Positions 7,214-42,902 of a stretch of 64,000 nt of DNA are shown here, piece by piece. Origin of the DNA: Bacillota bacterium (GTDB lineage: Bacteria; Bacillota; SHA-98; UBA4971); the NCBI GenBank assembly GCA_012516125.1, contig JAAYXB010000027.1, forward strand, positions 1 through 64,000, in the 5' to 3' direction. The translations under genes were made by a program, and so were the position numbers. Under the pieces are notes generated by a model. It was given only the letters and a program-made list of their open reading frames with translations, was not told where the DNA came from and searched no databases. Numbering within the stretch: the first letter of the stretch is position 1; each line of letters starts with the position of its first letter.

Positions 7214-8352
7214 CGCTTGTTACCCCTCCCCTGGAACGCCGCGAGGCCTTTACGCATGGCAAGCTCCAGCACTTTCCTCTCACGCTCGTCGGCCGCGTGC
7301 TCGAGCTTTGCCATAACCCTTCTCACGAAATACCCCCGGACGGTGGGTTCCGAGGCAAGCTGCCTGCCTAGCTCGTCGCTGAGGAATGTGGTCTCGTCAA
7401 CGACTTCGACGGAGAAGAACTCGCCCTGCAGCGAGCTGGCAAGGGCGTCCACGTCTATGGCGAACGGCGGCACGCCTTTCAGCGTGATCCTGACGAGAGC
7501 ATCGCTGTCGGCGCCTGTCGTGGCTCGACATGCGTCTACCAGCGCGTCGTGGGACGGGACCGCAGACACATCGATCTCGGCCGACACATGCTTCCGCACG
7601 GGAAGAGGCGAGGTCTTTACGGCCACGACCGCGCCCGTGTCGCTGAACTCGACCACAGTGAGCTCTCCCGTGCCGGGGTCATCGAACCCCTTCGCTTCCA
7701 CCATGCCCGGGTACACCGCGAGGCCCTTGCCGACCTTGAACTTCCCATGCTTGTGGATGTGTCCGAGGGCAACGTAGTGATACTCCGCGGCGGCAAGTGC
7801 CTGAGACGCTATTGGTAGGCTCCTGTCGCCGGCGTCCCAGTCGAGGGAGCCGTGGAACACCCCGATGTGTATCCCGGGTTCGGCTGCGCGCGGAAGGCTT
7901 TGGAGTTCGTCGGTGCGGGTGAGCCCTCCCGTGTAAGCCAGCGAGTACACGAAAACGCGTGTGCCGTTGAGGCTTTGCGAGGCGACCATCTCAGGCATGG
8001 GGTTCCGCACAAGCACGCCGGGCCAGGAATCACCCCGCTGTCTGTATACGGAGTCATGGTAGGTGATCTCGTCGTGGTTGCCGGGGACGGTTACGAGGAA
8101 CACGCCTGCCCGCGCCAGTCGCCCGAGCTGCCGGACGGCCTCCTCGGCCACGGCGGGGTCGGGCCTGTGCGACTCAAAGAGGTCGCCTGCAATGACGACC
8201 ATATTGATGCGATTGTCCGGGGCAAGAGCAAAGTCGACCGCCCTTTTTAGGAGCAAATCTCGTTCGTGTTGCCGGGTCCTCGCCTTATCTCCTGGAAGCT
8301 CGGATGGGGACCAACCGAGGTGCAGATCTGCAAGGTGGAGACACCGGAGCAC
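7210..8352 (-). CDS. YhaO/SbcD-like metallophosphoesterase (DNA repair exonuclease)
   Basis: A 380-residue calcineurin-like phosphoesterase. The metal-ligand motifs are in order: the N-terminal HLADLHLG (D-x-H), VIAGDLFES (GD), TVPGNHDE (GNHD), FHGSLD and ALGHIHK (GH-x-H). Proteins of this type are Mn-dependent nucleases that partner an SMC-like ATPase, here the YhaN-like gene that overlaps the 3' end by 4 bp. The C-terminal ~130 residues form a probable capping domain that contacts the ATPase. The start is GTG at 8352, with GAGGTGATGGAG just upstream. The gene lies 105 bp after the large membrane protein and may belong to the same transcript. Confidence 0.88.
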   Translation of the reverse strand: MLRCLHLADLHLGWSPSELPGDKARTRQHERDLLLKRAVDFALAPDNRINMVVIAGDLFESHRPDPAVAEEAVRQLGRLARAGVFLVTVPGNHDEITYHDSVYRQRGDSWPGVLVRNPMPEMVASQSLNGTRVFVYSLAYTGGLTRTDELQSLPRAAEPGIHIGVFHGSLDWDAGDRSLPIASQALAAAEYHYVALGHIHKHGKFKVGKGLAVYPGMVEAKGFDDPGTGELTVVEFSDTGAVVAVKTSPLPVRKHVSAEIDVSAVPSHDALVDACRATTGADSDALVRITLKGVPPFAIDVDALASSLQGEFFSVEVVDETTFLSDELGRQLASEPTVRGYFVRRVMAKLEHAADERERKVLELAMRKGLAAFQGRGNKR

Positions 8353-8457
8353 GCTCCATCACCTCGCCGGGATAGCGTCCATCCAAACAATACCACAGTT
8401 CTGCAGGAAATGGAAGAGTTCGCGAAGCCATGCAGGACCCGGCAGGAATCGGAAGGC

Positions 8458-10911
8458 TTACGTATCGCCTGCTGCTTCGTGACCGGCGAGATACAGCAGG
8501 ACAAGCGACGGATACAGCATCAGCAGCGCTGCTGCCACCACGCCTGAGTCGTTGGCAAGGACAGCCGCGGCTGCCGCGACGAGGCTTGCGGCAAGAGACG
8601 ACGCGAACCCAGGGTGGGCCTTCATGAGCCTTCTTGCGAGCCCCACCGGCCGCACCCAGAGGAGGGCCACGGCCGCGAGAAACGCAAACAGCGCGCGGGT
8701 CCAGACGGTGTACCGGACGAGCTTGAGGTTCATCGCCGCTTTACGCCGGACGACATCGACGAGCGCGGCGGGACCCTCTACGCGCATGGCGAGGACCGTC
8801 CGGCCCCAGTGCGATACAGGCCCACCGGCCCTCAGGGCGTCAGCGACGGCTATTCCCGCGACGAGCGACACCGCGAGCAGGGCGAGGATGGCTAGTTCCC
8901 GGCGGGTGACTCTTCTCTCCAGATACAGCACATACGCGATGCCGAACCCCACGACCGCCGTAAGCGTGCCACCCATGTTTGCGCCCAACGAGGGGGACGC
9001 GAGTACCAAGAGCGCGACGGCGAAGATAGCTGCGATGCCTGCGAGGGCGGCGGCGCGCACCGCAGGCCGCGCCCTGCGAAGGCCCATCCTGTCAAGGACA
9101 AGCCCACTTCCGGTTATGAGCGACCCGACCAGCACGCCCATATACTCGTTCCCTATCCCGTAGAACCTGGCGCCCCCTATAGGGTCGTAGCCGAGTATGG
9201 ACCCTTGCATGAGTTTCGATCCGAGCAGCGCGTCGCAAATGACCGCAAGCGCTGTGACGAGGTATACTGCGGCGAAGGGCGTCGGCGCCGCGCTCGGGCT
9301 GCGGCCGCAGGTGGCCCTTGCGGCAAAGCACATGACGAGCACCGCAGTCGCCACGTAGATGCCGGCGGGAACGGTGCCCGCCGGGCGTGCGAGCGGCAGG
9401 ACAAGCATGGCGAGGGGCACGGCGCCAAGACCCAGGAGCAGCGCCCATACGACCTGGGCGACCTGAGCCCGCATCGTCACGCCCCCCGGATGCCCGTCTG
9501 GGGTGCGGCGGAGCGCCTCCCGGGATACGCCGAGGTGCCGAAGGGAGCTATGCCTGGCGGCGGCGAGTGCGATGAGGGTGAGCGACGCGAGGGCCACGAC
9601 GATCTGCAGGCCCACGAACGTCTTGAGGAGAGGTGCCCTCATGAGGTAGGTGGACGCGATCTCATCGTGCATTGAAAGAAGCCGGGTAAGTGGCGCCCCC
9701 CGGTGGGGCACAACGCGCACCGGCGCCCCGAGGACCCAGGGCGACGCTTCCACGCCGAGCCACGAGAGTACGGACGCGGCCACGTCGGTGCTCACCACAA
9801 GGCCGTGCCGCCTTGTGGTGGGAGACGTCAGGAGCCCTGGCCGCCTCGAGAAGCCAGGGCCGGCCGCGATGACAGGTGCCAGGCTGTGGCCTGAGGCGAC
9901 CTCTCGCGCGGCCGGCGTCGGCGCGAGGACGATGAGCATGGTGTCGGTGAAATCTGTGAACTCGAGGAGGTGGCCGACAAGGGCATCCGCCGACGAGAGC
10001 GCAAGACGCCTGGCCTCTTCGTATGCCGCCTCGGTGAGAAGGCCGGCTGCCAGGTACCTTTCAACCCGGGCCGTGTCGCCCGACTCGACCACGACGAGAT
10101 CGGCCTTCCCTGCCGTCACGGCGTCCCTTACGAGCGCCGCGACAAGCTCGGTGTTGGTTGCGATGCCTCCAGGGAAGTCATCCCTGCGGATGGCCGTGTC
10201 GCGGCCAACGTCGCCCAGGTCAACAACGCCGCGCATGTCCATGGCAACCGCTGCGGCATGGCGGCCGAGATGCCCCGGCGTGTCGAAATTCCCGAAGACG
10301 GCGGTCTTCTTCCCAGCCCTTCTGAGGGCCTCACCCAGGGCGCCGGGAACGATGCGGTAGCTTGAGTCGGAATTGGTGCGGGCGATAAGGGCGATATAGG
10401 GATGCACGACGCTGCCAGGCGGTGGCGCGGCGGCGGCGCCCGTGTTGCGGGCGAACGTGACGGCGGCGGGCGCACCCTCTACGATCTCGTCCGAGTTGAA
10501 GGCACATCCTGCCTCCTGCGGTCCCTGCGCCCTTGTGCCTGCGCCGAGCGTCACGTATGTGTGCTCGTCCTGCAGGGTCTTCGCCGTGCGCACGTTCATG
10601 AGGCCGACCGCGCCGGTTGAAGCGAGCTTCCACATGTTGGGCGTAAGCGCCGGATCGATGTCTTTAAGTGAGAGCGCGTTTACCAGCACGAGGACCACTC
10701 GACGGACGGATGGGGCGGCTGCGGCCCACGCCCAGGTCTGTGGCGACCGGACGGGGGCAAGCAGCCCCAAAACCAGGACAAGCGCTGCGAGCTTTGGGCA
10801 CGTTACAGAGGACGAACGGCGTCCAGACAGGTGTCCAGACATACGGCGCCCAAAGAACCTCCTGGAGAGCCTCCTGGAAGGCCACATGCAGGAATTTGGC
10901 ACGCCTGACAC
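8458..10911 (-). CDS. Large membrane protein with extracytoplasmic alkaline-phosphatase-like domain
   Basis: An 817-residue protein. After a basic N-terminus there is one hydrophobic signal/anchor helix (~40-65). Residues ~68-420 resemble the alkaline-phosphatase/phosphopentomutase fold: a beta strand RRVVLVLVNAL, a 'TPNM..LAS.GAVGLMNVRTA' segment, YVTLGAGTRA, a GNFDTPG loop, ADLVVVESGD and a late SGHSLAPVIAAG His motif. The expected first metal-binding Asp is not obvious, so activity is uncertain. The C-terminal half (~430-810) has about nine transmembrane helices. It lies between a GT4 glycosyltransferase and the nuclease/SMC pair, all on one strand. A role in envelope glycan or phospho-polymer metabolism is a guess from context. 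The start is GTG at 10911, with GGAGG 12 bases upstream. Confidence 0.6.
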   Translation of the reverse strand: MSGVPNSCMWPSRRLSRRFFGRRMSGHLSGRRSSSVTCPKLAALVLVLGLLAPVRSPQTWAWAAAAPSVRRVVLVLVNALSLKDIDPALTPNMWKLASTGAVGLMNVRTAKTLQDEHTYVTLGAGTRAQGPQEAGCAFNSDEIVEGAPAAVTFARNTGAAAAPPPGSVVHPYIALIARTNSDSSYRIVPGALGEALRRAGKKTAVFGNFDTPGHLGRHAAAVAMDMRGVVDLGDVGRDTAIRRDDFPGGIATNTELVAALVRDAVTAGKADLVVVESGDTARVERYLAAGLLTEAAYEEARRLALSSADALVGHLLEFTDFTDTMLIVLAPTPAAREVASGHSLAPVIAAGPGFSRRPGLLTSPTTRRHGLVVSTDVAASVLSWLGVEASPWVLGAPVRVVPHRGAPLTRLLSMHDEIASTYLMRAPLLKTFVGLQIVVALASLTLIALAAARHSSLRHLGVSREALRRTPDGHPGGVTMRAQVAQVVWALLLGLGAVPLAMLVLPLARPAGTVPAGIYVATAVLVMCFAARATCGRSPSAAPTPFAAVYLVTALAVICDALLGSKLMQGSILGYDPIGGARFYGIGNEYMGVLVGSLITGSGLVLDRMGLRRARPAVRAAALAGIAAIFAVALLVLASPSLGANMGGTLTAVVGFGIAYVLYLERRVTRRELAILALLAVSLVAGIAVADALRAGGPVSHWGRTVLAMRVEGPAALVDVVRRKAAMNLKLVRYTVWTRALFAFLAAVALLWVRPVGLARRLMKAHPGFASSLAASLVAAAAAVLANDSGVVAAALLMLYPSLVLLYLAGHEAAGDT

Positions 10912-30128: not shown

Positions 30129-32972
30129 CTAAGCAAGATACGCTCTTGTGAGAGATTCGTCGTCAAGAAATCTTGCAGCAGGTCCTGTCCCCACGATTCG
30201 CCCGGAGCGCAGCACGTAAGCCCGGTCGGCGATGGCGAGTGCCGCCCGGGCGTTCTGCTCTACCAGCAGCACGGTCGTTCCCGCCCTCCTGATGTCCTGG
30301 ATCATCTGCATGACCCTGTCAACGAGCACGGGCGCAAGGCCCATGGACGGCTCATCCATGCAGATGAGCTTCGGGTTTGCGATGAGCGCACGGGAGATCG
30401 CGAGCATCTGTTGTTCGCCGCCGGAGAGCGTCCCCGCCTTCTGGTGGCGCCTTTCGGCAAGCACCGGGAAGAGATCGAGGACTTGTTCTATGCGCTCGGC
30501 GGCCTTGCGCCGGTCGCCAAGGACGTACCCGCCGAGCTCGAAGTTTTCCAGGACGGAAAGCCCCGGGAAGATCCTGCGACCCTCTGGGACCACTGCAATT
30601 CCGGCCCTTGCGATCTCGGAGGTGGGCGTGCCGTCTATCCTCCGGCCCATGAACCGGATCTCTCCCTTCGCCGGACGGACGCGGCCGAGAATGGTCCTGA
30701 GCAGCGTGGACTTCCCCGCGGCGTTGCTGCCGAGGACAGTCACGATCTCACCGCTCTCCACATAGAGATCCACGCCCTGGAGGACCCTGACCGGGCCGTA
30801 CGACGAGTGAACGTCTCTTATCTCGAGTAGCGGCTCGCCGTTCTCTGCTACCCTGCGCCTCGCTTCCGGGCGTCCGGGGCACTTGCTCGGGGGCCTTGGT
30901 AGCTTCACCTCCACCTGCTCGTGACGGGGCGCGTTCGCACAAGCACAGGTTGCGCCTTCCTGGGTGGTATCTCCAACTTTCCCCGGCTCGTCGCGAGGTC
31001 CTGCCCGACGGTCGGCAGCCGTCCCCCGTTCCACTCCCAGGTAGGCCCGCATCACCTCGGGGTTCGAAGCCACCTCGGCCGGCGTGCCCTCGGCGATCTT
31101 CTCGCCGTGGTCGAGGACGATCACGCGGTCGCACGTCCCGGCAACCACATCCATGTGATGCTCGATCACGATCACGGTGTAGCCGTGGTCCTTAAGCCTC
31201 TTGATCGTGTCGACCATCTCTTCGATTTCCTCAGGCGTCATCCCTGCCGTGGGCTCGTCGAGCAGCAGGATGCGGGGCTTGGCCGCGAGCGCCCGGGCAA
31301 GCTCTACCCGGCGGCGGTCCGGATATGCGAGATCGCGTGCAGGTTCCGCCTCACGCTCACGCAGGGCGCGCCCGAGAAAGCGCAGGGTATCGCGGGCGGT
31401 CGCGATCTCTGACGCCTCGCACGCCCGGAACGCCTGGGTGCGGAAGACCACCCCCGTAAGGTCGCGCCTTACTCGGAGATGACAACCGGCGAGGACGTTC
31501 TCGAGGACGCTCTGGCCCTCAAAGAGCCTGATGTTCTGGAAAGTGCGCGCGACGCCGAGAGCTGCTATCCTGTGAGACGGCAGGCCCACCACGCTCTTGC
31601 CGAAGACCCTGATATCCCCGGAGGAGGGCCTCGTGACTCCGGTGATGAGGTTGAAGAGCGTGGTCTTCCCCGCCCCGTTCGGTCCGATGATGCCGACCAC
31701 CTCGCCCCGGTGCACCGTCAGGTTCACGCCGGAGAGGGCCGCAAGGCCGCCGAAGGTGCAGCGCACGTCGCGAACCTCGAGCGCAGGTTCGCCTGTCGCG
31801 GTCGCGGCACCGGCCTTGGCTGTCGCCCCGGGTTCCACGCGCGCTCCGGGTGCCTGGGCCGGGCGGGGTTCCGCTTCCGGCGTCCGCCTGCTACGCCGCC
31901 CGGTGCGCCCAGGCTCAGACGAGGAGGACCCGGAACGCGCGGGGATTAGGCCCTGAGGGCGATATATCACGAGAAGCACGAGGGCGACGCCGTAGATGAG
32001 CATTCTATACACGCTGTAGGCGCGCAGCAATTCCGGGAGGACTACCAGCGCAGCCGCTCCTAAGACGAGCCCCGGGAGATTCCTCATCCCGCCCAGGATG
32101 ATCATGCAGTAGACAGTGATGGTCTCTGCCATCGTGAAGTTCTGGGGGAAGACCGCCCCCTGCCACGAGGCGAAAAGCGCCCCCGCAAGCCCCGCGAGGC
32201 CAGCTCCCCACAGGAAAGCCATCACCCTGTACCGCGCCACGTCCACGCCCATGCAGCCAGCGGCCACCTCGTCCTCGCGAAGCGCAGCCCACGCCCGCCC
32301 GATTCCGGAGCGCAGGAGGCGGCTGGTCACAACTGCGGATCCGACGGCGAACGCCCATATCAGGCAGTATGACATCTCGAGCGGCGCGAAGCTCACGCCG
32401 AGGATGCTCGGAGGGTCGATCCCCACTATTCCGTTAGGGCCGTTCGTGATGTTCACCGGTCGGTCCAGGTTGTTGAGGAGGATGCGGACGATCTGCCCGA
32501 ACCCCAGCGTCACCATGGCCAGGTAGTCCCCGCGCAGGTGAAGCGTGGGGAGGCTCACCATGAGCGCCGCGAGGACTGCCCCTGCGACCGAGCATGCCGT
32601 GCTGAGCAGGAACGGCACGTGCAGTCCGAAGTGGGGCGACGACAGGAACGCGTACACGTAAGCACCGATGCCGTAGAACGCGACGTACCCGAGGTCGAGA
32701 AGCCCGGCCTCGCCGGCCACGATGTTGAGGCCGATGGCCAGTATGAGGTAAAGCCCGACGGTTCCACCCACGCGCAGGTAGTAAAAGTTACGCGTGAGAA
32801 GCGGGATGAGGGCGAGGAGGGCGATGCCAAGATACACGGTCCCCGCGCCTCTGGCCGCGGCCATGCCTCGCTCCTGCCCGGAAGTTGTGGCGGCACAGGC
32901 GCCGCGCGCGTCGCCGGCTGCTACTGCGTCGTAGGATCCTCTCAACGTTACCACTCTTTCTTTGTGCTTCAT
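30129..32972 (-). CDS. LivM-LivG-LivF triple fusion: Liv-type ABC permease with two ATPases
   Basis: One 947-residue chain. Residues ~40-345 are a LivM permease (GLNIVAGEAGLLDLGYVAFY, HLRGDYLAMVTLGFGQIVRI, EDEVAAGCMGVDVARYR, ending VIYRPQGLIP). After a Pro/Ala/Gly-rich linker (~345-395) comes LivG (~395-645) with GPNGAGKTTLFNLI, GVARTFQNIRLF and LLLDEPTAGMTPEE. A second linker with three Cys leads to LivF (~712-947), with Walker A variant GSNAAGKSTL, VPEGRRIFPGLSV, LSGGEQQMLAISRAL and MDEPSMGLAP. All catalytic motifs are present, so both ATPases should work. Together with LivH and LivK it forms a high-affinity amino-acid importer. Separate genes are the rule, as at the second locus in this window. 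The start is ATG at 32972. Confidence 0.93.
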   Translation of the reverse strand: MKHKERVVTLRGSYDAVAAGDARGACAATTSGQERGMAAARGAGTVYLGIALLALIPLLTRNFYYLRVGGTVGLYLILAIGLNIVAGEAGLLDLGYVAFYGIGAYVYAFLSSPHFGLHVPFLLSTACSVAGAVLAALMVSLPTLHLRGDYLAMVTLGFGQIVRILLNNLDRPVNITNGPNGIVGIDPPSILGVSFAPLEMSYCLIWAFAVGSAVVTSRLLRSGIGRAWAALREDEVAAGCMGVDVARYRVMAFLWGAGLAGLAGALFASWQGAVFPQNFTMAETITVYCMIILGGMRNLPGLVLGAAALVVLPELLRAYSVYRMLIYGVALVLLVIYRPQGLIPARSGSSSSEPGRTGRRSRRTPEAEPRPAQAPGARVEPGATAKAGAATATGEPALEVRDVRCTFGGLAALSGVNLTVHRGEVVGIIGPNGAGKTTLFNLITGVTRPSSGDIRVFGKSVVGLPSHRIAALGVARTFQNIRLFEGQSVLENVLAGCHLRVRRDLTGVVFRTQAFRACEASEIATARDTLRFLGRALREREAEPARDLAYPDRRRVELARALAAKPRILLLDEPTAGMTPEEIEEMVDTIKRLKDHGYTVIVIEHHMDVVAGTCDRVIVLDHGEKIAEGTPAEVASNPEVMRAYLGVERGTAADRRAGPRDEPGKVGDTTQEGATCACANAPRHEQVEVKLPRPPSKCPGRPEARRRVAENGEPLLEIRDVHSSYGPVRVLQGVDLYVESGEIVTVLGSNAAGKSTLLRTILGRVRPAKGEIRFMGRRIDGTPTSEIARAGIAVVPEGRRIFPGLSVLENFELGGYVLGDRRKAAERIEQVLDLFPVLAERRHQKAGTLSGGEQQMLAISRALIANPKLICMDEPSMGLAPVLVDRVMQMIQDIRRAGTTVLLVEQNARAALAIADRAYVLRSGRIVGTGPAARFLDDESLTRAYLA

Positions 32973-33098: not shown

Positions 33099-34028
33099 TC
33101 ATACCTTCTCGTGCGCGTGTTCCCCCAGGATTCCCGCAGGCTTCAGTATAAGGGTTGCGATGAGCACGGAGAAAACAATGGCGTCCTTGTACACGGGCGC
33201 CACGAAGAGCACCCCGAGGCTCTCCGCAAGGCCCAGGACGATCCCGCCGGCCATGGCGCCCCTTATGCTCCCGATACCTCCAAGCACGGCCGCAGTAAAG
33301 GCCTTCAGGCCTGCCGAGAATCCCATTATGAAGTCCACCTGCATGTAGTAAAGCCCGATCATGACTCCCGCGATGCCTGCAAGTGCCGACCCGATAATGA
33401 AGGTCGCCGCGATCACCGCGGACGTCCGGATGCCCATGTACTCGGCAGCTTCGGGGTCTTCGCTCGTGGCGCGCATGGCCTTGCCGAGCATGGTGTGGGA
33501 GATGGCGAAGTCAAGCGCCAGCATGATGGCCACCGATGCCGCGAAGATAGCAAGGCGCGTGGCCGAGATGGCGGCGTCTCCCACGCGAACGGTCCAGGTG
33601 GGCGGGATGAGCAGCTCCGTCTGGTACGCTTTGGCACGCCCCGCGGTCAGCAACATCGCAGCGTTCTCCAGAATGATAGATACCCCGAGAGCCGAAATGA
33701 GCGGCGCGAGGCGCGAGCTTCCGCGTAGCCGGCGATATGCGAAACGCTCGATGAGCCCTCCCAGGATGCTGGTAGCCGCCACCGCAGCCAGGGTCATGAC
33801 GACGAGAACCGCGAAGGGGTTTGCCGCGAGCGCCCCGCCCCTGGTGAAGAGATAGAGGACTGCCCACCCCGCAAAGGCACCGACCATGAACACGTCCCCA
33901 TGTGCGAAGTTGAGCATCTTGAGGATGCCGTAGACCATGGAGTAGCCGAGCGCGAGCAGGGCATATACGCTGCCCAGCGTGAGGCCGTTCACGATCTGTT
34001 GGGGCAACTGCGCGAGTACCTGTTCCAT
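33099..34028 (-). CDS. livH: LivH-type permease of branched-chain amino-acid ABC transporter
   Basis: A 309-residue membrane permease beginning LPQQIVNGLTLGSVYALLAL and GYSMVYGILKMLNFAHGDV, the standard LivH opening. It has about eight to nine helices, a MRATSEDPEAAEYMGI coupling loop and GLKAFTAAVLGGIGSIRGAM. It forms the heterodimeric channel with the LivM part of the downstream fusion protein. A gap of 126 bp separates it from the fusion gene, and 350 bp from livK upstream. Confidence 0.92.
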   Translation of the reverse strand: MEQVLAQLPQQIVNGLTLGSVYALLALGYSMVYGILKMLNFAHGDVFMVGAFAGWAVLYLFTRGGALAANPFAVLVVMTLAAVAATSILGGLIERFAYRRLRGSSRLAPLISALGVSIILENAAMLLTAGRAKAYQTELLIPPTWTVRVGDAAISATRLAIFAASVAIMLALDFAISHTMLGKAMRATSEDPEAAEYMGIRTSAVIAATFIIGSALAGIAGVMIGLYYMQVDFIMGFSAGLKAFTAAVLGGIGSIRGAMAGGIVLGLAESLGVLFVAPVYKDAIVFSVLIATLILKPAGILGEHAHEKV

Positions 34029-34378: not shown

Positions 34379-35626
34379 TCACCGGACCTCAGCAGGGTAC
34401 TCCTTGACCTGGACGAAGTCGCCACCCTTCACCTGGAACACGTAGATGCTCGCTCCGACCACGTCGCCCTTGGCGTTGAAGCTCACCGGGAATCCGAGTA
34501 TCCCCCGGTAACCCCGGGTGTTGTGGACCGCCTCCAGCACTGCGGCCCGCGTGAGCCCGGCGGGGTTATTCCCGGCCGCCTTCCTCATGGCCTCTATCAG
34601 TATCTTCGTCGCCTCATAGCTCTGCCCCGAGAAAATGCTCATAGCACCGTACTTGCCTTCGAACTTCTGGATGAACCCTTGTGCCTCGGGCACATCCTTG
34701 ATGTCGCGGCCTATGGCCGTCACATACATGCCCTCGGCTGCTCCTCCGGCGCCCGCAATAAGCTGGTCTCTCTCTTTGAGGCCATCTCCTCCCATTAACT
34801 TGGGCCGGAGTCCGAGCCCGACGGCCTGCTTGATAAGGGCCGCGGCCTGGGCGGGGTTCGGGAGCGCGAGGTACAGGAGGTCCGGCGCGGCGGCCTTGAC
34901 CTTCGTCAGAATAGGCGAGAAATCCCTGTCCTCGGGAGTTATCTGACCGCGCGTGATCTTGACGCCGGCCTTCTTAAGCGCCGCGGCTACCTGGTCCGCG
35001 AGGCCCTGTCCGTACGCGCCCTTGTCGTCGAGTATGTAGACGTTCTTCGCTCCGAGCTCTTCCACTATAAATCTCGCCGCTGCCGGGCCCTGGGCGTCAT
35101 CCCTCGGGCATATCCTGTGCATGACCTTATACCCGAGTTCGGTCAGGGACGGGTTCGTGGCTGACTGGCTTATGATCACCAGCCCCGCCCGCTGGTAAGT
35201 CGGCAGGGCGGCGTTCACGGCACCGCTGTTCATCGGTCCCACCACGCCGAGCACGCTCCTGTCCATGGCAAACTTATCGGCGACGATGACGGCCCGTGCG
35301 GGGTCGCCCGCGTCATCCCCAACCACTATTTCGATCTTCCTTCCCCCGACGCCGCCTTCGGCGTTTGCCTCATCCACAGCCATCCGGATGGCGTTGAGGG
35401 AGTCGAGGCCGATCTTAGAGAGATCCCCCGTGAATGGCCCTGCGGCGCCGATCTTGACCGGCGGCAGCTCTGTGCCGAAGACAAGACCCGTGCCGATGCC
35501 CAGGACGAGCACCACCAGGACCGCAAGGCACAGTGAAGTGCGGGCGCCCGCGGCCATCCCTGCCAGACCCATTCTGAGCCTGCTTCTCACTTTCTTCTGA
35601 TTCCGACGTGAAACTACCGGTTTCAT
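34379..35626 (-). CDS. livK: Amino-acid ABC transporter substrate-binding protein (LivK-like)
   Basis: A 415-residue exported binding protein of the periplasmic-binding-protein type 1 fold. A long basic N-terminus and hydrophobic segment (TSLCLAVLVVLVLGIGTGLV) form the signal peptide. The mature protein starts PPVKIGAAGPFTGDLSKIGL and contains GVVGPMNSGAVNAALPTYQ, IISQSATNPSLTELGY and DKGAYGQGLADQVA. The family binds Leu/Ile/Val and related or aromatic amino acids. No lipobox Cys is visible, so it may be free in a periplasm. It lies 22 bp after the aldehyde:ferredoxin oxidoreductase gene, which argues for one transcript. Confidence 0.9.
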   Translation of the reverse strand: MKPVVSRRNQKKVRSRLRMGLAGMAAGARTSLCLAVLVVLVLGIGTGLVFGTELPPVKIGAAGPFTGDLSKIGLDSLNAIRMAVDEANAEGGVGGRKIEIVVGDDAGDPARAVIVADKFAMDRSVLGVVGPMNSGAVNAALPTYQRAGLVIISQSATNPSLTELGYKVMHRICPRDDAQGPAAARFIVEELGAKNVYILDDKGAYGQGLADQVAAALKKAGVKITRGQITPEDRDFSPILTKVKAAAPDLLYLALPNPAQAAALIKQAVGLGLRPKLMGGDGLKERDQLIAGAGGAAEGMYVTAIGRDIKDVPEAQGFIQKFEGKYGAMSIFSGQSYEATKILIEAMRKAAGNNPAGLTRAAVLEAVHNTRGYRGILGFPVSFNAKGDVVGASIYVFQVKGGDFVQVKEYPAEVR

Positions 35627-35648: not shown

Positions 35649-37559
35649 TTATCGGTCGACTATCGGCACGCCCCGCTCTGCGAGGCGACTTGCCCACTCG
35701 TCCAGGCCGAGCCTTCTCAACGTAGACGCGGTCGGGACGCCGGTCCCGACATCCCACCCCCGGGCCTTGTAATACTCGTCGAGCATCTCATCGAGTGCGA
35801 CCGTGCTGCCGCTTGTCGCCCCGCACCCCGCGGGCATCGGCTCTTCCCTGAAGCGCCTGGGAAGCGTGTCGTCGCATCGGCGGATCCCAAGGGCGGTGAT
35901 GAAGCAACGTTCGAGGTTGACGATGCGCTCGCAGGCAGCCTGCACCTCGGCCTCGTCGAAGTCGAAGCCTGTTGCAGCCCGGAGGACCGTGGCGGCGTCA
36001 TCGAACGGCAGGACCTCCATGTTCACGATGGTGTTCTTGCACGCGTCGAGCGAGTCAGCGAGGGCGCACAGCTCCTCGAAATGCTTGACGACGCGGCCTT
36101 TGCCCTTGTGCTCGAGCCTGAAGGCCGCTTCCCTTGCCCCGAACCTTCGCACGGCCGCCTCGGCATCCTGGGTGAACTCGAAGGACGGCTCTGACCGGAG
36201 GTGGTCGCCGCCGCGGCTTGCGACCGCGTTGCCCAGCGCGTAACCCTTGATGCCCCTGGGGTCAGCCATGAAGATCTCGAGGCCTTTCACGTGCATGGCG
36301 AGGTCCTCGCTGCCCCGGCCGATCTTGCGCGCCGCTTCACGGACCCCATCTGCGAGCACGTCCCCGAAGCCTTCGCGCGATGCGATCTTGCGGACCAAGG
36401 TCTGCACGGCGCCGATGTTTCCCCAGGTAAGGTCGAGACCGTCAGCCTCTTGGCGCGAGATGATCCCGCGCTCGAAGCACTCCATGGCGAAGGACACGCA
36501 CTCCGCCGTGGAGATAGCGTCCATCCCGGCGCGATTGCATATGTCGAGGGTGGCAAGGCCGGCCTCAAGGTCGCGGACGCCGACACGTGACGTGAAGCCC
36601 GCAAGCCCCTCGAACTCCGGTCCCTCACTCTTGAGGCCGGCGTATGGCCCGGACTTCACCTCGAAGAACCTGCTGCACGGGATGGTGCACGAAAAGCACG
36701 CCTTGCCCTTTACCCTGAGGCGCGCGGCAAGCGTCTCGCCGCTCACCTCGTCCGCATGCTCGAACCTTCCCGTCTGGAAGTGGCGGGTGGCGAGGCACCC
36801 CGCCGCATTGAGGGCCGAGAGGAGCCTCGTGGTGCCCAAGGCGACCCTGGGCTTATACTCCGGGTGGCTCAGGATCCTTGTGTCCAGCGCTCTAATGAAA
36901 TCGAGGAACTCCTCCGGGCGCGCGACCTCCAGGGGTTTTGTGCCGCGAACGACGACCGCCTTGAGTCCCTTGGACGCCATCACTGCACCAATTCCGGTCC
37001 GCGCTGCGGCGCGGACGAGGTTGCAGAAGATCCCTGAGAATTTCACTCCGCGCTCGGCAGCGGGGCCGATGCATGCGACCTGGGCGCGGCCCCCGTGTCG
37101 CGCAAGGAGCGCCTTTTGTGTTTCCCACACGTCGAGGCCCGCGAGGTCCCCGGCGGGAAGGACCTCGGCCCCATCGTCGGATATGAAGAGATAAGAAAGC
37201 CTATCGGCCCGTCCGCGTATGATAACCTGATCGTACCCGGCGAATTTGAGCTCTGGTCCGAAAAACCCGCCGGCGTTGGAGTCCCCGAGTATCCCGGTCT
37301 GAGGGGACTTCGAGGTGAAGTTCACACGGGCAGCGCCGGGGAAGAGCGTGCCGTCGAGGGGGCCCGTGCCGATGATGAGGACGTTCTCGGGGGAGAGCGG
37401 ATCGACGTCAAGGTCGATCTCGCGGACGAGCCGCGCGACGTTGAGCCCGCGCCCGCCGATATACCGCCGGGCCGAAGCGAGGTCAAGTCCTTCGGCTGAG
37501 ACTTTGCCGGCGCCAAGATCGACGTCGAGTATCCTGCCTGCGTAGCCGTATGACTTCAT
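35649..37559 (-). CDS. Aldehyde:ferredoxin oxidoreductase (W/Mo pterin enzyme)
   Basis: A 636-residue tungsten or molybdenum bis-pterin enzyme that oxidises aldehydes to carboxylates with ferredoxin as acceptor. The N-terminal domain starts YGYAGRILDVDLGAGKVS and has YIGGRGLNVARLV and the pterin-binding GDSNAGGFFGPELKFAGYD. The single 4Fe-4S cluster uses CFSCTIPCSRFF (C-x2-C-x3-C) near residue 285 and a later Cys in DSLDACKN. MADPRGIKGYALGNAVASRGGD (read in parts) is the conserved AOR motif. The start is ATG at 37559, overlapping the ferredoxin-fusion stop by one base. Gene order with an amino-acid importer fits oxidation of aldehydes formed from amino-acid 2-oxoacids; the actual substrate is unknown. 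Confidence 0.94.
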   Translation of the reverse strand: MKSYGYAGRILDVDLGAGKVSAEGLDLASARRYIGGRGLNVARLVREIDLDVDPLSPENVLIIGTGPLDGTLFPGAARVNFTSKSPQTGILGDSNAGGFFGPELKFAGYDQVIIRGRADRLSYLFISDDGAEVLPAGDLAGLDVWETQKALLARHGGRAQVACIGPAAERGVKFSGIFCNLVRAAARTGIGAVMASKGLKAVVVRGTKPLEVARPEEFLDFIRALDTRILSHPEYKPRVALGTTRLLSALNAAGCLATRHFQTGRFEHADEVSGETLAARLRVKGKACFSCTIPCSRFFEVKSGPYAGLKSEGPEFEGLAGFTSRVGVRDLEAGLATLDICNRAGMDAISTAECVSFAMECFERGIISRQEADGLDLTWGNIGAVQTLVRKIASREGFGDVLADGVREAARKIGRGSEDLAMHVKGLEIFMADPRGIKGYALGNAVASRGGDHLRSEPSFEFTQDAEAAVRRFGAREAAFRLEHKGKGRVVKHFEELCALADSLDACKNTIVNMEVLPFDDAATVLRAATGFDFDEAEVQAACERIVNLERCFITALGIRRCDDTLPRRFREEPMPAGCGATSGSTVALDEMLDEYYKARGWDVGTGVPTASTLRRLGLDEWASRLAERGVPIVDR

Positions 37560-38395
37560 CAGATGTTTCCCTCCTGGTCGCCTGGTGTGTCCTGGGTGGA
37601 TGCGCGATGGGGAGCGCCGGGTCTGGGGGCCTTCTCGCCAACTCCAGCCAGGCCGTACGAGATGGCTCCTGTTGGACACCGCCTCACGCACTCCGGGTCC
37701 CCGCCGCAGAGATCGCAGATGAGCGGGACCCTGGTCTCGGGATGGAAAGCCACGGCGCCAAAGGGGCATGCGTCGGCGCACGTGCCGCATCCGCTGCACC
37801 GGGTCTCGTCCACGACAACGCACCTGGTTTCGGGGTTCCGCGAGAGAGCTCCACTTGGGCATGCCTCCACGCACCTCGCGTTTCCGCACTGCCTGCATAC
37901 CAACGGACGGTCGATCCCGTCCTCATCGACCTTGTCCACGTGTATCCTTGATAGCAAGTCGGAAAACTTCCGCTCGTGCGTAAAGCTGCAGATGAGCTCA
38001 CATGCCCGGCAGCCTGCGCAGAGCTTTTCGTTCACGAGCATCTTGGGGCGCGGGCCCCGACCGCTGCGGGTGCGGGTGTCGCGGCCGGTGCGCCCGTCGT
38101 GCTCTTTCGTTCCCTCACCCGCCGGTTCGCCCACCCGCTCGATCCGGAATATGACCATGCCGTTTGGGTCAGGGCACGCTACCCGGACGGTGTCCGAGAG
38201 CCAGTCGTTCTCCTCGACGATGTTGCGTTGCTTTGCCGGGAGCATTGGGAGAATGCTCTGAAGCGCCCACAGGCACATGAATTTGCCATCGGGGATCGTG
38301 ATACGCCCCCCGCTGACCTCGAAGTAGTCTCCAACCTTCATCGGAAGGTCGCAGAACCCACGAATTTCGTCGACCACAACCCTGAGATCGTACAT
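37559..38395 (-). CDS. TIGR04076-domain / polyferredoxin fusion protein
   Basis: A 278-residue two-part protein. Residues ~1-90 resemble the TIGR04076 family (VGDYFEVSGGRITIPDGKF, then MCLWALQSILPML and VACPDPNGMVIFRIER). After a charged linker, residues ~118-250 form an HycB-like ferredoxin with several cysteine clusters: CAGCRACELIC, CRQCGNARCVEACP, CSGCGTCADACP and CDLCGGDPECVRRCP, enough for four 4Fe-4S centres. It probably carries electrons from the oxidoreductase encoded immediately downstream. The chosen start is ATG at 38395, ten bases after GGAGG; ATG at 38413 is an alternative. It is the first gene after the T-box leader. Confidence 0.82.
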   Translation of the reverse strand: MYDLRVVVDEIRGFCDLPMKVGDYFEVSGGRITIPDGKFMCLWALQSILPMLPAKQRNIVEENDWLSDTVRVACPDPNGMVIFRIERVGEPAGEGTKEHDGRTGRDTRTRSGRGPRPKMLVNEKLCAGCRACELICSFTHERKFSDLLSRIHVDKVDEDGIDRPLVCRQCGNARCVEACPSGALSRNPETRCVVVDETRCSGCGTCADACPFGAVAFHPETRVPLICDLCGGDPECVRRCPTGAISYGLAGVGEKAPRPGAPHRASTQDTPGDQEGNI

Positions 38396-38533
38396 GTTCA
38401 ATGCTGCCTCCATGCTTCTGTGTTGGCGGTCGGCCGGCAGGCTAACCCGCCGACCAGCCTCGTTTGCCGCGAAAGCCTTTCTGCCGGACGGCGACGGCGA
38501 GGGCGAGAGTTGCATCCCGACGCCATGGCCAAC

Positions 38534-40058: not shown

Positions 40059-40640
40059 TCAGCGGCTACGTAAGGCGACAAACGAACGTGTTGCGAAGGT
40101 CCTGGTACCCGAGCCAAGGGAGAGGCTTACCTCCACTCCTGTAGCCTGTGCCGCGTCAGCATAGTCCAACTGGGACCCCGCCTGCACAGGGGAGCTGTCC
40201 GCACCATAATACGTGAAAACGCACGACAGGACATGCGCGCCCTCATGCACAATGGGGAGCCCGTTCCGACGTATGGTACCACCACGAGAACTACCGTCGT
40301 CCGAAACCGCCAAGCTGAACGCGTACTCGACCTCGTCTCCGCGCTGGTCAACAAGCCTCAGGGTCCTGTCATCGGAGCCATCCAGGACTTGACGCGCTCC
40401 TCTTACGTCAGTGGTTATCTGTTCCACCACTCTGGACGCTTCCCCTGCCAGGAACATGATGTCCCGGGATATCGCCCAGGCGCGTGCACCGACCGTGAGA
40501 GCCCCGTATGCGATGCCGAGCACAATTGGGATCACCGCGAGAACCATCGTCACCTCGACCAGCGTCAGCCCACGCTGGTCCAGTCCAAGCCAATTATGCG
40601 AAATCTGTAGAATAACCAGCTTCTCCCCAGTTCTGTTCAC
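40059..40640 (-). CDS. Pilin-like protein (type IV/pseudopilin, GspJ/PulG-like)
   Basis: A 193-residue protein with a class III signal peptide: a ~25-residue leader ending in QRG, then LTLVEVTMVLAVIPIVLGI, where prepilin peptidase would cut after Gly and Glu5 is present. The rest has a predicted globular head containing DQRGDEVEYAFSL and GTIRRNGLPI. It is the last of three pilin-type genes on the minus strand. The start is GTG at 40640, nine bases after GAGGAG. The size and heterogeneous head suggest a minor pilin. No prepilin peptidase or assembly ATPase is encoded in this window. Confidence 0.8.
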   Translation of the reverse strand: MNRTGEKLVILQISHNWLGLDQRGLTLVEVTMVLAVIPIVLGIAYGALTVGARAWAISRDIMFLAGEASRVVEQITTDVRGARQVLDGSDDRTLRLVDQRGDEVEYAFSLAVSDDGSSRGGTIRRNGLPIVHEGAHVLSCVFTYYGADSSPVQAGSQLDYADAAQATGVEVSLSLGSGTRTFATRSFVALRSR

Positions 40641-40756
40641 TTTGCTACGCTCCTCACGCAACCCAAGACCCAGGTATCAGGCGTTCCTTACGCGTCTTTC
40701 GCTGCCCCAGCCTAGGCCTGAGGAAGCGGTCGGAAGTGCCCTGCGGCCGCTGCCCC

Positions 40757-41221
40757 TCAAAGCCCACCTGCATATACATAGGTACTCAGACTCACGAGCA
40801 ACTTGCCGTACTCAGCTGGCTTGGGCCTTGGATACCGGTGCACACTCACCGTGACGAGCCACAAGCTGTTCGCTCCCGCCGTATCGACGGCTGTCACAGC
40901 CCTGACAACTTCGTACTGGGTGTGCTCGCTGCCCCCTTCTCCTGCGCGGGAAACAACCCACGTGACAGTGCCCGCTTCAAGGTCCTGCGCGCCCGCGGTC
41001 TTGACGTCCTCCATCCATTCACGGGCAAGGTCAGTGACATATGACATCTCATCTGCACGTGCGGCCCCTCCCACGCCCATTCCCAAGACGCCCATAAGTG
41101 GGATGATCGCCGCCGATACGATGACCAGGGCGATGAGCACCTCGATAAGGGTCATGCCCGATGTGCACGAGCCCTTGCTGTGCGGGCCGCTCCCTGGGCC
41201 ACCTTGTGGCCCTCCATGCAC
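40757..41221 (-). CDS. Minor pilin (PilV/GspI-like)
   Basis: A pilin-type protein of about 154 residues. A leader of ~26 residues rich in Gly/Pro/Ser ends SG, followed by MTLIEVLIALVIVSAAIIPL, with Glu5, matching the PilV/GspI consensus. The head contains EWMEDVKTAG and VSRAGEGGSEHTQYEVVRAV. The start is uncertain: GTG at 41221 is the nearest reasonable codon after the upstream stop at 41244, but no clear ribosome binding site precedes it. A longer frame would reach back into the upstream gene. Confidence 0.72.
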   Translation of the reverse strand: MHGGPQGGPGSGPHSKGSCTSGMTLIEVLIALVIVSAAIIPLMGVLGMGVGGAARADEMSYVTDLAREWMEDVKTAGAQDLEAGTVTWVVSRAGEGGSEHTQYEVVRAVTAVDTAGANSLWLVTVSVHRYPRPKPAEYGKLLVSLSTYVYAGGL

Positions 41222-41243
41222 GCCGCCGGGTGGAGGGACGCGT

Positions 41244-42626
41244 CTATTCTGCAGACTGGTACGAGCTTCTCCATGTGTCGCGAAGGAGAGAGAGCCTCGT
41301 CTTTCCGCCGGTGAAGTGAGGCGGTTGATTCTCCGGGCGAAGCAGCCCATAATCGTAACGTATGTCATAACGCCCATTTCCTGTGAGATTTGCATTGCCT
41401 CTTATAACAAGGTTCCCCCTCTTAATCTCAAGGGCTCCGCCGCCTTTGTTGAGATTGCCGTTTACCCAGACGACCCCATCAACAGACACAGTGCTGTGTA
41501 GCCCTTGCTGGATGTTCACATTCCCCTTGGCCATGATTGCGGGGAGGTTGTCCTTATGGCCAATCACCACTTCGTCCCTCAGATGAAGATTCCCTTCACA
41601 GAAGGCTCCCCCGAGCAGAGTGCAACCATCACTAAGGGTTGCGTTCCCCCCGGTGTAGAGCGATCCCCCCACTGTCGCTCCCGAGACCTCCAGGTTGCCG
41701 CCATCCAGGTAGACATTGCCCTTTATCTCGCCGCTGATTCCGCCTTGGCGGATGTTAACACCAGCGGACATCTTAACATCACCGTCGATTACGCTGTCCG
41801 CGTCCCCGATCCCGGACACATTTCCACCCTGAATGCAGACTGACCCGGATATGCGGCCCACTATGGGCCCGTTGATGTTGCTCGATTTGATGAGAATGCT
41901 GCCAAACACCGGTCCGATGATCCCGTGGGTCACATTGCAGCCACTCAGGTAGACGTCTCCATAAACGGGTCCCACTATGCGGCTGATATTGGCATTCCTG
42001 TAGTAGTGCGGCCCTGACCCGACCGGCCTCACCTCGCCTAGGTTGCCAGAAAGGGGAGGGACACCCGGCGTCACCCATGAGATGTCAGGCTCAAGCAAGG
42101 CACGATACGCGCCCCAGTCAGGACTGGGCACATCCGGTAGCGCGAGACCCGTAACCGGACCGTTCGGACCGCTCGCCGGTTCGACGTTCTCGACCCGCGG
42201 GGGGTTGAGATTCCCGGCTGCGAACACCACGTGTTGCCATGCCTCCGGCGAGCTTTTCGCCGCTACTGAGACCTCGCAGGTGTGCCATCCCGTGCTGGCG
42301 GAGGAACGAACGAGGTATACGGAGGCATCATCGGAGCTCTGGGCACAGCTGACAGTGTAGGCGACGCCGTCTATGCTACCATCAAGATCTGATGGGGTGG
42401 CCTCCCTGCTATCACAAAGGAAAAGCCACCGGTTGATTCCCGCCTCGGCTGCATAGAGAGCTTTCGCCCTGTCCCGCGCCCAGGTTGACGCTTTGTAGGC
42501 ATTCGCTGCGATGGCCATCGCTGCGGCTGCAAGGACTCCGAGCACGGCGACGGCCACGAGCACAGCCAAAAACACCGTGCCGCTCTCCCCCTTGCTCCGC
42601 GGGTGCTCACCGGCGAGCCCGGACAC
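41244..42626 (-). CDS. PilX-like membrane-anchored protein with beta-solenoid repeats
   Basis: A 460-residue protein. Its N-terminus, SGTVFLAVLVAVAVLGVLAA, is a PilX-type transmembrane segment and is followed by an AAEAGINRWLF motif typical of PilX/pilus accessory proteins. From about residue 190 to 430 it has short repeats with Gly/Asn/Val periodicity (ISRIVGPVYGDVYLSGCNV, GIIGPVFGSILIKSSNI, GPIVGRISGSVCIQGGNV) that fold as a right-handed beta-solenoid, similar to polymer-forming or bactofilin-like domains. It heads the three-gene pilin cassette. The start is GTG at 42626, eight bases after AGGAG. Its role is probably at the pilus tip or cell surface. Confidence 0.75.
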   Translation of the reverse strand: MSGLAGEHPRSKGESGTVFLAVLVAVAVLGVLAAAAMAIAANAYKASTWARDRAKALYAAEAGINRWLFLCDSREATPSDLDGSIDGVAYTVSCAQSSDDASVYLVRSSASTGWHTCEVSVAAKSSPEAWQHVVFAAGNLNPPRVENVEPASGPNGPVTGLALPDVPSPDWGAYRALLEPDISWVTPGVPPLSGNLGEVRPVGSGPHYYRNANISRIVGPVYGDVYLSGCNVTHGIIGPVFGSILIKSSNINGPIVGRISGSVCIQGGNVSGIGDADSVIDGDVKMSAGVNIRQGGISGEIKGNVYLDGGNLEVSGATVGGSLYTGGNATLSDGCTLLGGAFCEGNLHLRDEVVIGHKDNLPAIMAKGNVNIQQGLHSTVSVDGVVWVNGNLNKGGGALEIKRGNLVIRGNANLTGNGRYDIRYDYGLLRPENQPPHFTGGKTRLSLLRDTWRSSYQSAE

Positions 42627-42902
42627 TTGCCTCACTCCTCTCGTCCCTGCTCAAGAACCATCTCCCACATCGGATCCGTGCCCCCACTTCTCCAACCTTC
42701 AGCAGTTCCAGCCGTGCCAGCCTAGCCACGATCGAACACCGATGTTAATGTCGAATTATTCGCTAACGGTCGGCGATTTCCTGCAAACAGGTTACGTATT
42801 CATCAGTTGCATGATGCCTGTGACAGGCCTGGCGAGTCTCGGGGAATACTTACTGAAGCAAGGAATCAGAAGTTGTACCGTCCGAGGAGGTCTTTGAGAA
42901 GC
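42627..42902. promoter_or_regulatory. Divergent region between pilin cassette and flavoprotein gene
   Basis: A 276-bp region that should hold two outward promoters. I see no unambiguous -35/-10 pair. GCCTGTGACAGGC (about 42816-42828) is a short perfect palindrome that could be an operator. Confidence 0.3.

Follow-up and report, generated by a model that had tools for sequence, protein, structure and literature searches.

A single gene for three transporter parts

The gene at 30129–32972 (minus strand) of the window, by which we mean the whole 64,000-nucleotide stretch of DNA analysed, raises the question of whether the LivM permease and the LivG and LivF ATPases are really made here as one chain, and how such a chain would use its two ATP sites. 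The interval was found to be filled by a single open frame, 947 codons and a stop, without internal stops. Pfam recognized BPD_transp_2 at residues 70–334 followed by two ABC_tran domains; NCBIfam matched LivG at residues 396–646, above the cut-off, and LivF/UrtE-type models at 715–946, and the C-terminal domain of LivG, BCA_ABC_TP_C (PF12399), was present at 624–648. Frame, profile domains and homologues agree with the earlier note, which had described LivM, LivG and LivF as one 947-residue polypeptide. Its description of domains joined through linkers was also borne out, both junctions being predicted-disordered linkers of 53 and 69 residues. Along the chain, all on the minus strand, these are the LivM permease domain (residues 46–342; 31947–32837), a Pro/Ala/Arg-rich linker 1 with low pLDDT (343–395; 31788–31946), the LivG ATPase domain (396–646; 31035–31787), linker 2 (647–715; 30828–31034) and the LivF ATPase domain (716–947; 30132–30827). 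The start codon is uncertain, either Met1 (32972) or Met37 (32864): a Shine-Dalgarno-like sequence precedes both, and the N-terminal ~40 residues are conserved only in the nearest relative. AlphaFold2 models of the complete chain and of the LivG-LivF part (pTM 0.47 and 0.52, respectively) had good ATPase domains and no confident relative placement, and we draw no structural conclusion from them.

Just upstream of the fused gene, in gene direction, lie genes for a separate second permease, LivH (33099–34028, minus strand), and a LivK-type substrate-binding protein (34379–35626, minus strand), both recognized as window ORFs with synteny in relatives; all five Liv parts (LivK, LivH, LivM, LivG and LivF) are found in a single operon. 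By domains and operon the system is a Liv/HAAT importer. It has the same components as the E. coli LivFGHMJ/K type (TCDB 3.A.1.4), and differs from it in that LivM, LivG and LivF form a single chain, that the LivG signature has lost its glycine and that the LivF Walker A carries an alanine. The operon order LivK-LivH-[LivMGF] is conserved, with LivK 67–93% identical among relatives. A second Liv operon, at 44.1–48.0 kb of the window, has separate LivM, LivG and LivF genes (46946–45921, 45924–44908 and 44921–44139) overlapping by 4–14 bases; these coordinates match the earlier description of an unfused operon at 44.1–47.0 kb with few-base overlaps. At least five LivG/LivF pairs are present in the source genome.

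The substrate would be amino-acid-like. Among the flanked loci searched, no substrate clue from neighbouring genes was conserved besides LivK-LivH. Upstream genes for an aldehyde:ferredoxin oxidoreductase and Fe-S proteins were present in two relatives only (L009 and L010) among these loci, and because of this restriction they were not used to infer a substrate. Adjoining the oxidoreductase gene (35649–37559) is one ORF (37559–38515, minus strand) that joins a TIGR04076 domain (41–129) to a 4Fe-4S ferredoxin part (162–290), an arrangement conserved in the same two relatives. Three ORFs lie between both Liv operons (40059–42635, minus strand), two of which are prepilin-like by look, with hydrophobic N-termini GLTLVEVTMVLAV and GMTLIEVLIALVI.

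The fusion is shared by a clade and read through its linkers

Relatives were collected in an alignment of 21 fused or contig-edge homologues, and searching 398 genomes from the phylum added more. In the source's own family (f1), the fused frame was found in 12 of the 12 other genomes examined, at full length or reaching a contig edge: in four of them (G006, G008, G009 and G010) the contig stops before LivF is complete, and in G003 the gene is split over two contigs. Families f63, f18 and f73 carry the fusion as well (8 of the 12 genomes from the G186 class), and no return to separate genes was seen among the intact contigs of the four families. It was not found in the four other genomes searched from the source's own class (G013–G016). 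The possibility, raised in the earlier note, that the fusion is common to all relatives thus holds for its own family and three others and fails for other families of the class and most of the phylum, which makes the fusion the trait of a clade instead of an isolated case. In one relative (L011) the fusion gene is directly followed by a 201-aa LivF-like ORF (8220–8822) with a destroyed Walker A (GQRASKVP) and an intact LSGGEQQ, perhaps a decaying copy.

The linkers themselves were informative. In 46 distinct linkers comprising 2459 in-frame codons we found no stop, against 74 and 117 stops in the other two frames. The linkers change quickly in length (24–112 aa among those listed) and in sequence, yet the frame never breaks, indicating that they are translated through; their exact sequence seems to matter little. 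The source genome is a draft of 98 contigs, but overlooked stops or indels at the two junctions are a next to impossible cause of the fusion: independent assemblies contain over 20 distinct homologous fusions, the linkers are free of stops, and a genome assembled as a single contig has a comparable fusion. On these grounds the sequencing error that the earlier note had wished to see excluded was rejected. The LivM-LivG-LivF fusion is real.

Separate subunits could still arise from the one frame, by internal translation starts or by proteolysis in the linkers, which are long and disordered. Linker 1 holds a weak GTG candidate start with a Shine-Dalgarno-like sequence, which is not conserved in relatives, and across the 46 linkers no internal start with a Shine-Dalgarno sequence was found to be conserved. 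Internal starts were rejected on this basis, candidates being present and conserved in none. Moreover, internal starts sufficient to supply the subunits would tolerate stops upstream, and the linkers have none. We regard production as separate subunits as improbable, and the chain would probably stay uncleaved.

Altered motifs gather in one composite ATP site

We then compared the ATP-site motifs of the two ATPases. The earlier statement that every catalytic motif is intact did not hold: the LivG signature (31311–31331, minus strand, as are all motifs below) reads LAYPDRR, in which the fourth-position glycine is replaced by Pro551, while other LivG proteins have L[PSA]YG.[QR][RK] or close to that. 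The register was confirmed by alignment with LptB-type ATPases (LSGGERRR), and other fused proteins carry LSYPDKR, LSYPERR, LSYPHRR, LSYSDKR or LTYADRR. In the LivG D-loop, the asparagine of canonical LivG is replaced by Thr579 (31236–31238), as in most of the fused clade. The other LivG motifs, namely Walker A (GPNGAGKT, 31662–31685), Walker B, Q-loop and H-loop, are intact. In LivF, the Walker A (30708–30731) is GSNAAGKS, with alanine for the usual fourth-position glycine, exactly as the earlier note had read it, and the signature (LSGGEQQ, 30408–30428) is canonical. All fused proteins of the source's clade have GxNA[AS]GK[ST] as LivF Walker A, with no change in the LivG Walker A or the LivF signature.

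When two ABC ATPases dimerize, the signature of LivG comes to lie opposite the Walker A of LivF, and in known ABC dimers the signature glycine donates to the gamma-phosphate of ATP. The LivF alanine and the LivG signature change therefore share one composite ATP site, in which the LivG D-loop threonine should lie as well; with the remaining motifs unchanged, the deviations gather in this one site. Judged from these motifs, the altered site is probably weakened.

The Walker A alanine is no isolated oddity and accompanies the loss of the LivG signature glycine. Among 80 distinct LivG/LivF pairs, 50 had glycine in both the signature and the Walker A, 29 had a non-glycine signature with a Walker A alanine, one had a non-glycine signature with a Walker A glycine, and none combined a signature glycine with an alanine. 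Alanine was thus found only where the LivG glycine was lost (29 pairs; 0 of 50 where it was kept), counts that do not represent independent events, since the pairs with both changes belong mostly to one clade. The DNA pattern of the altered Walker A also matched many unrelated ABC ATPases; of the matching loci that were read, only L108 and L112 proved to be additional Liv systems.

The altered site is older than the fusion, which has a single origin in the clade

The history of both traits was followed in a FastTree phylogeny of concatenated LivG and LivF (78 tips, 481 columns). Fused proteins of the source's kind formed one clade (support 1.0), indicating a single origin of the fusion there. 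When the 20 motif columns were removed, 27 of the 28 non-glycine tips formed one clade (support 0.963). The exception, L112 (LivG LTLAGRK, LivF GSNAAGKT), leaves the degenerate clade once the motif columns are masked; because it falls elsewhere, the altered pair may have arisen twice, with L112 possibly its second origin. Both changes are also carried by unfused systems, three actinobacterial loci (L022, L023 and L025) and L108, and the altered site is therefore older than the fusion. The actinobacterial loci have the same degenerate pair (LSYANRR with GGNASGKS) in adjacent M, G and F genes, and differ from the source in that these genes are separate and, in L022, stand by the ornithine-degradation genes Ord and OrtB. 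This neighbourhood (L022:3075–13206) hints at an ornithine-like substrate for that system. In L156, the LivG signature is LSYADRR, without the glycine, and the LivF Walker A is GSNGAGKS, with its glycine kept. This locus is a possible evolutionary intermediate and suggests that the signature changed first.

A second, separate M-G-F fusion was found in family f10 (L165 and L167). It has the same domain order and length, ~950 aa, and differs in its LPFGLQR signature and GSNGAGKS Walker A (L165), its other tree branch and its position beside HpaD: the fusion of L165 (950 aa, in the single-contig genome G069) has canonical motifs, is distant in the tree and, at L165:1028–5451, adjoins an HpaD-type dioxygenase gene. 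A second genus (G399) holds a 61% relative, a 964-codon frame. Three-domain chains are thus uncommon in the phylum, where they arose at least two times. The canonical motifs of L165 also indicate that fusion needs no degeneracy. Partial fusions exist too. L072 fuses LivG and LivF only, and LivM-LivG fusions ('branched-chain amino acid ABC transporter ATP-binding protein/permease') are frequent, on proteobacterial plasmids as well; they likewise place the permease before LivG, and differ in having LivF as a separate gene and canonical motifs in the four that were read (L044, L069, L070 and L073).

An asymmetric importer as the preferred reading

We propose, with a probability of roughly two in three (0.68), that the locus encodes a branched-chain-type amino-acid importer that works asymmetrically, having a consensus ATP site and a degenerate one, and whose ATPase heterodimer is fixed by the fusion. 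The consensus site, made of the LivG Walker motifs and the LivF LSGGEQQ, would carry the main ATP turnover, and the degenerate site, made of the LivF Walker motifs and the LivG LAYPD, would mainly bind ATP and hold both ATPases together. A LivG:LivG pair would have two defective signatures, leaving LivG:LivF as the only working dimer, and fusing LivG, LivF and LivM would fix the right pairing in genomes with several Liv systems. Given such a defective homodimer and the at least five LivG/LivF pairs of the source genome, a covalent heterodimer could prevent mispairing, a rationale for the fusion. The earlier note had also claimed a defined stoichiometry: LivM, LivG and LivF are indeed joined with LivH separate, and a built-in 1:1:1 ratio would follow if the chain stays uncleaved; the two ATPases would pair within the chain.

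The main weakness of this asymmetric reading is that LivF retains its Walker A lysine and the DEP glutamate of Walker B on the degenerate side in every case, so some hydrolysis at the degenerate site is possible. In addition, the LivF of every Liv system read has glutamate at the Q-loop and glutamine at the H-loop position, and asymmetry may therefore not be special to the source's clade. The retained residues also fit an alternative in which the LivG proline, the LivG threonine and the LivF alanine make a compensated, fully active site and both sites hydrolyse ATP; the strict co-occurrence of the changes would fit steric compensation across the interface. Against it stand the loss of a glycine that contacts the gamma-phosphate and the signature glycine kept by canonical LivG in all 50 pairs with a Walker A glycine, and we consider full compensation unlikely.

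The alternative that survives best is an ordinary gene fusion by drift of adjacent, translationally coupled genes, with a product that works like an unfused Liv system. The common LivM-LivG fusions elsewhere, the independent M-G-F fusion with canonical motifs and the nearly free evolution of the linkers all speak for it. Its maintenance in four families without splitting back in intact contigs, and its nesting within the clade whose ATP site is altered, weigh against drift while being compatible with it. We rate drift as somewhat doubtful, if a substantial possibility. It is nearly an even bet, falling slightly short of one, that an importer clade evolved a conserved, hydrolysis-poor ATP site and that fusion later locked an obligatory LivG:LivF heterodimer together with LivM.

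Relation to known degenerate-site transporters

To our knowledge, the discussion of degenerate ATP sites has centred almost exclusively on exporters and channels, among which CFTR, TAP and Pdr5 evolved such a site. The fused Liv protein resembles TM287/288, CFTR, Pdr5 and ABCG5/G8 in that one composite site deviates, with a changed signature. Those proteins are exporters or a channel, and most of them lose the Walker B glutamate or the Walker A lysine, whereas the fused protein is an importer that keeps both. The one-sided signature deviation is present (LivG LAYPDRR versus LivF LSGGEQQ) and replacement of the Walker B glutamate on the degenerate side is absent; since LivF keeps DEP, we do not file the protein as a classical degenerate-site transporter. 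Comparable motif changes are on record for exporters, with a degenerate LNVEQ signature in Pdr5 and joint alteration of signature and Walker A in ABCG5/G8 (PMC7756269), and the division of labour between consensus and degenerate ATP sites has been reviewed for them (PMC7756269, PMC5216877). In the one literature library searched, no paper was found to describe a LivMGF fusion or a Liv system with a degenerate site.

Why degenerate ATP sites exist is an open question in the field. The Liv systems described here, which include canonical sisters, a possible intermediate (L156) and members with and without the fusion, offer a natural series for testing the role of the second ATP site, and the fusion provides a ready-made 1:1 heterodimer for structure work.
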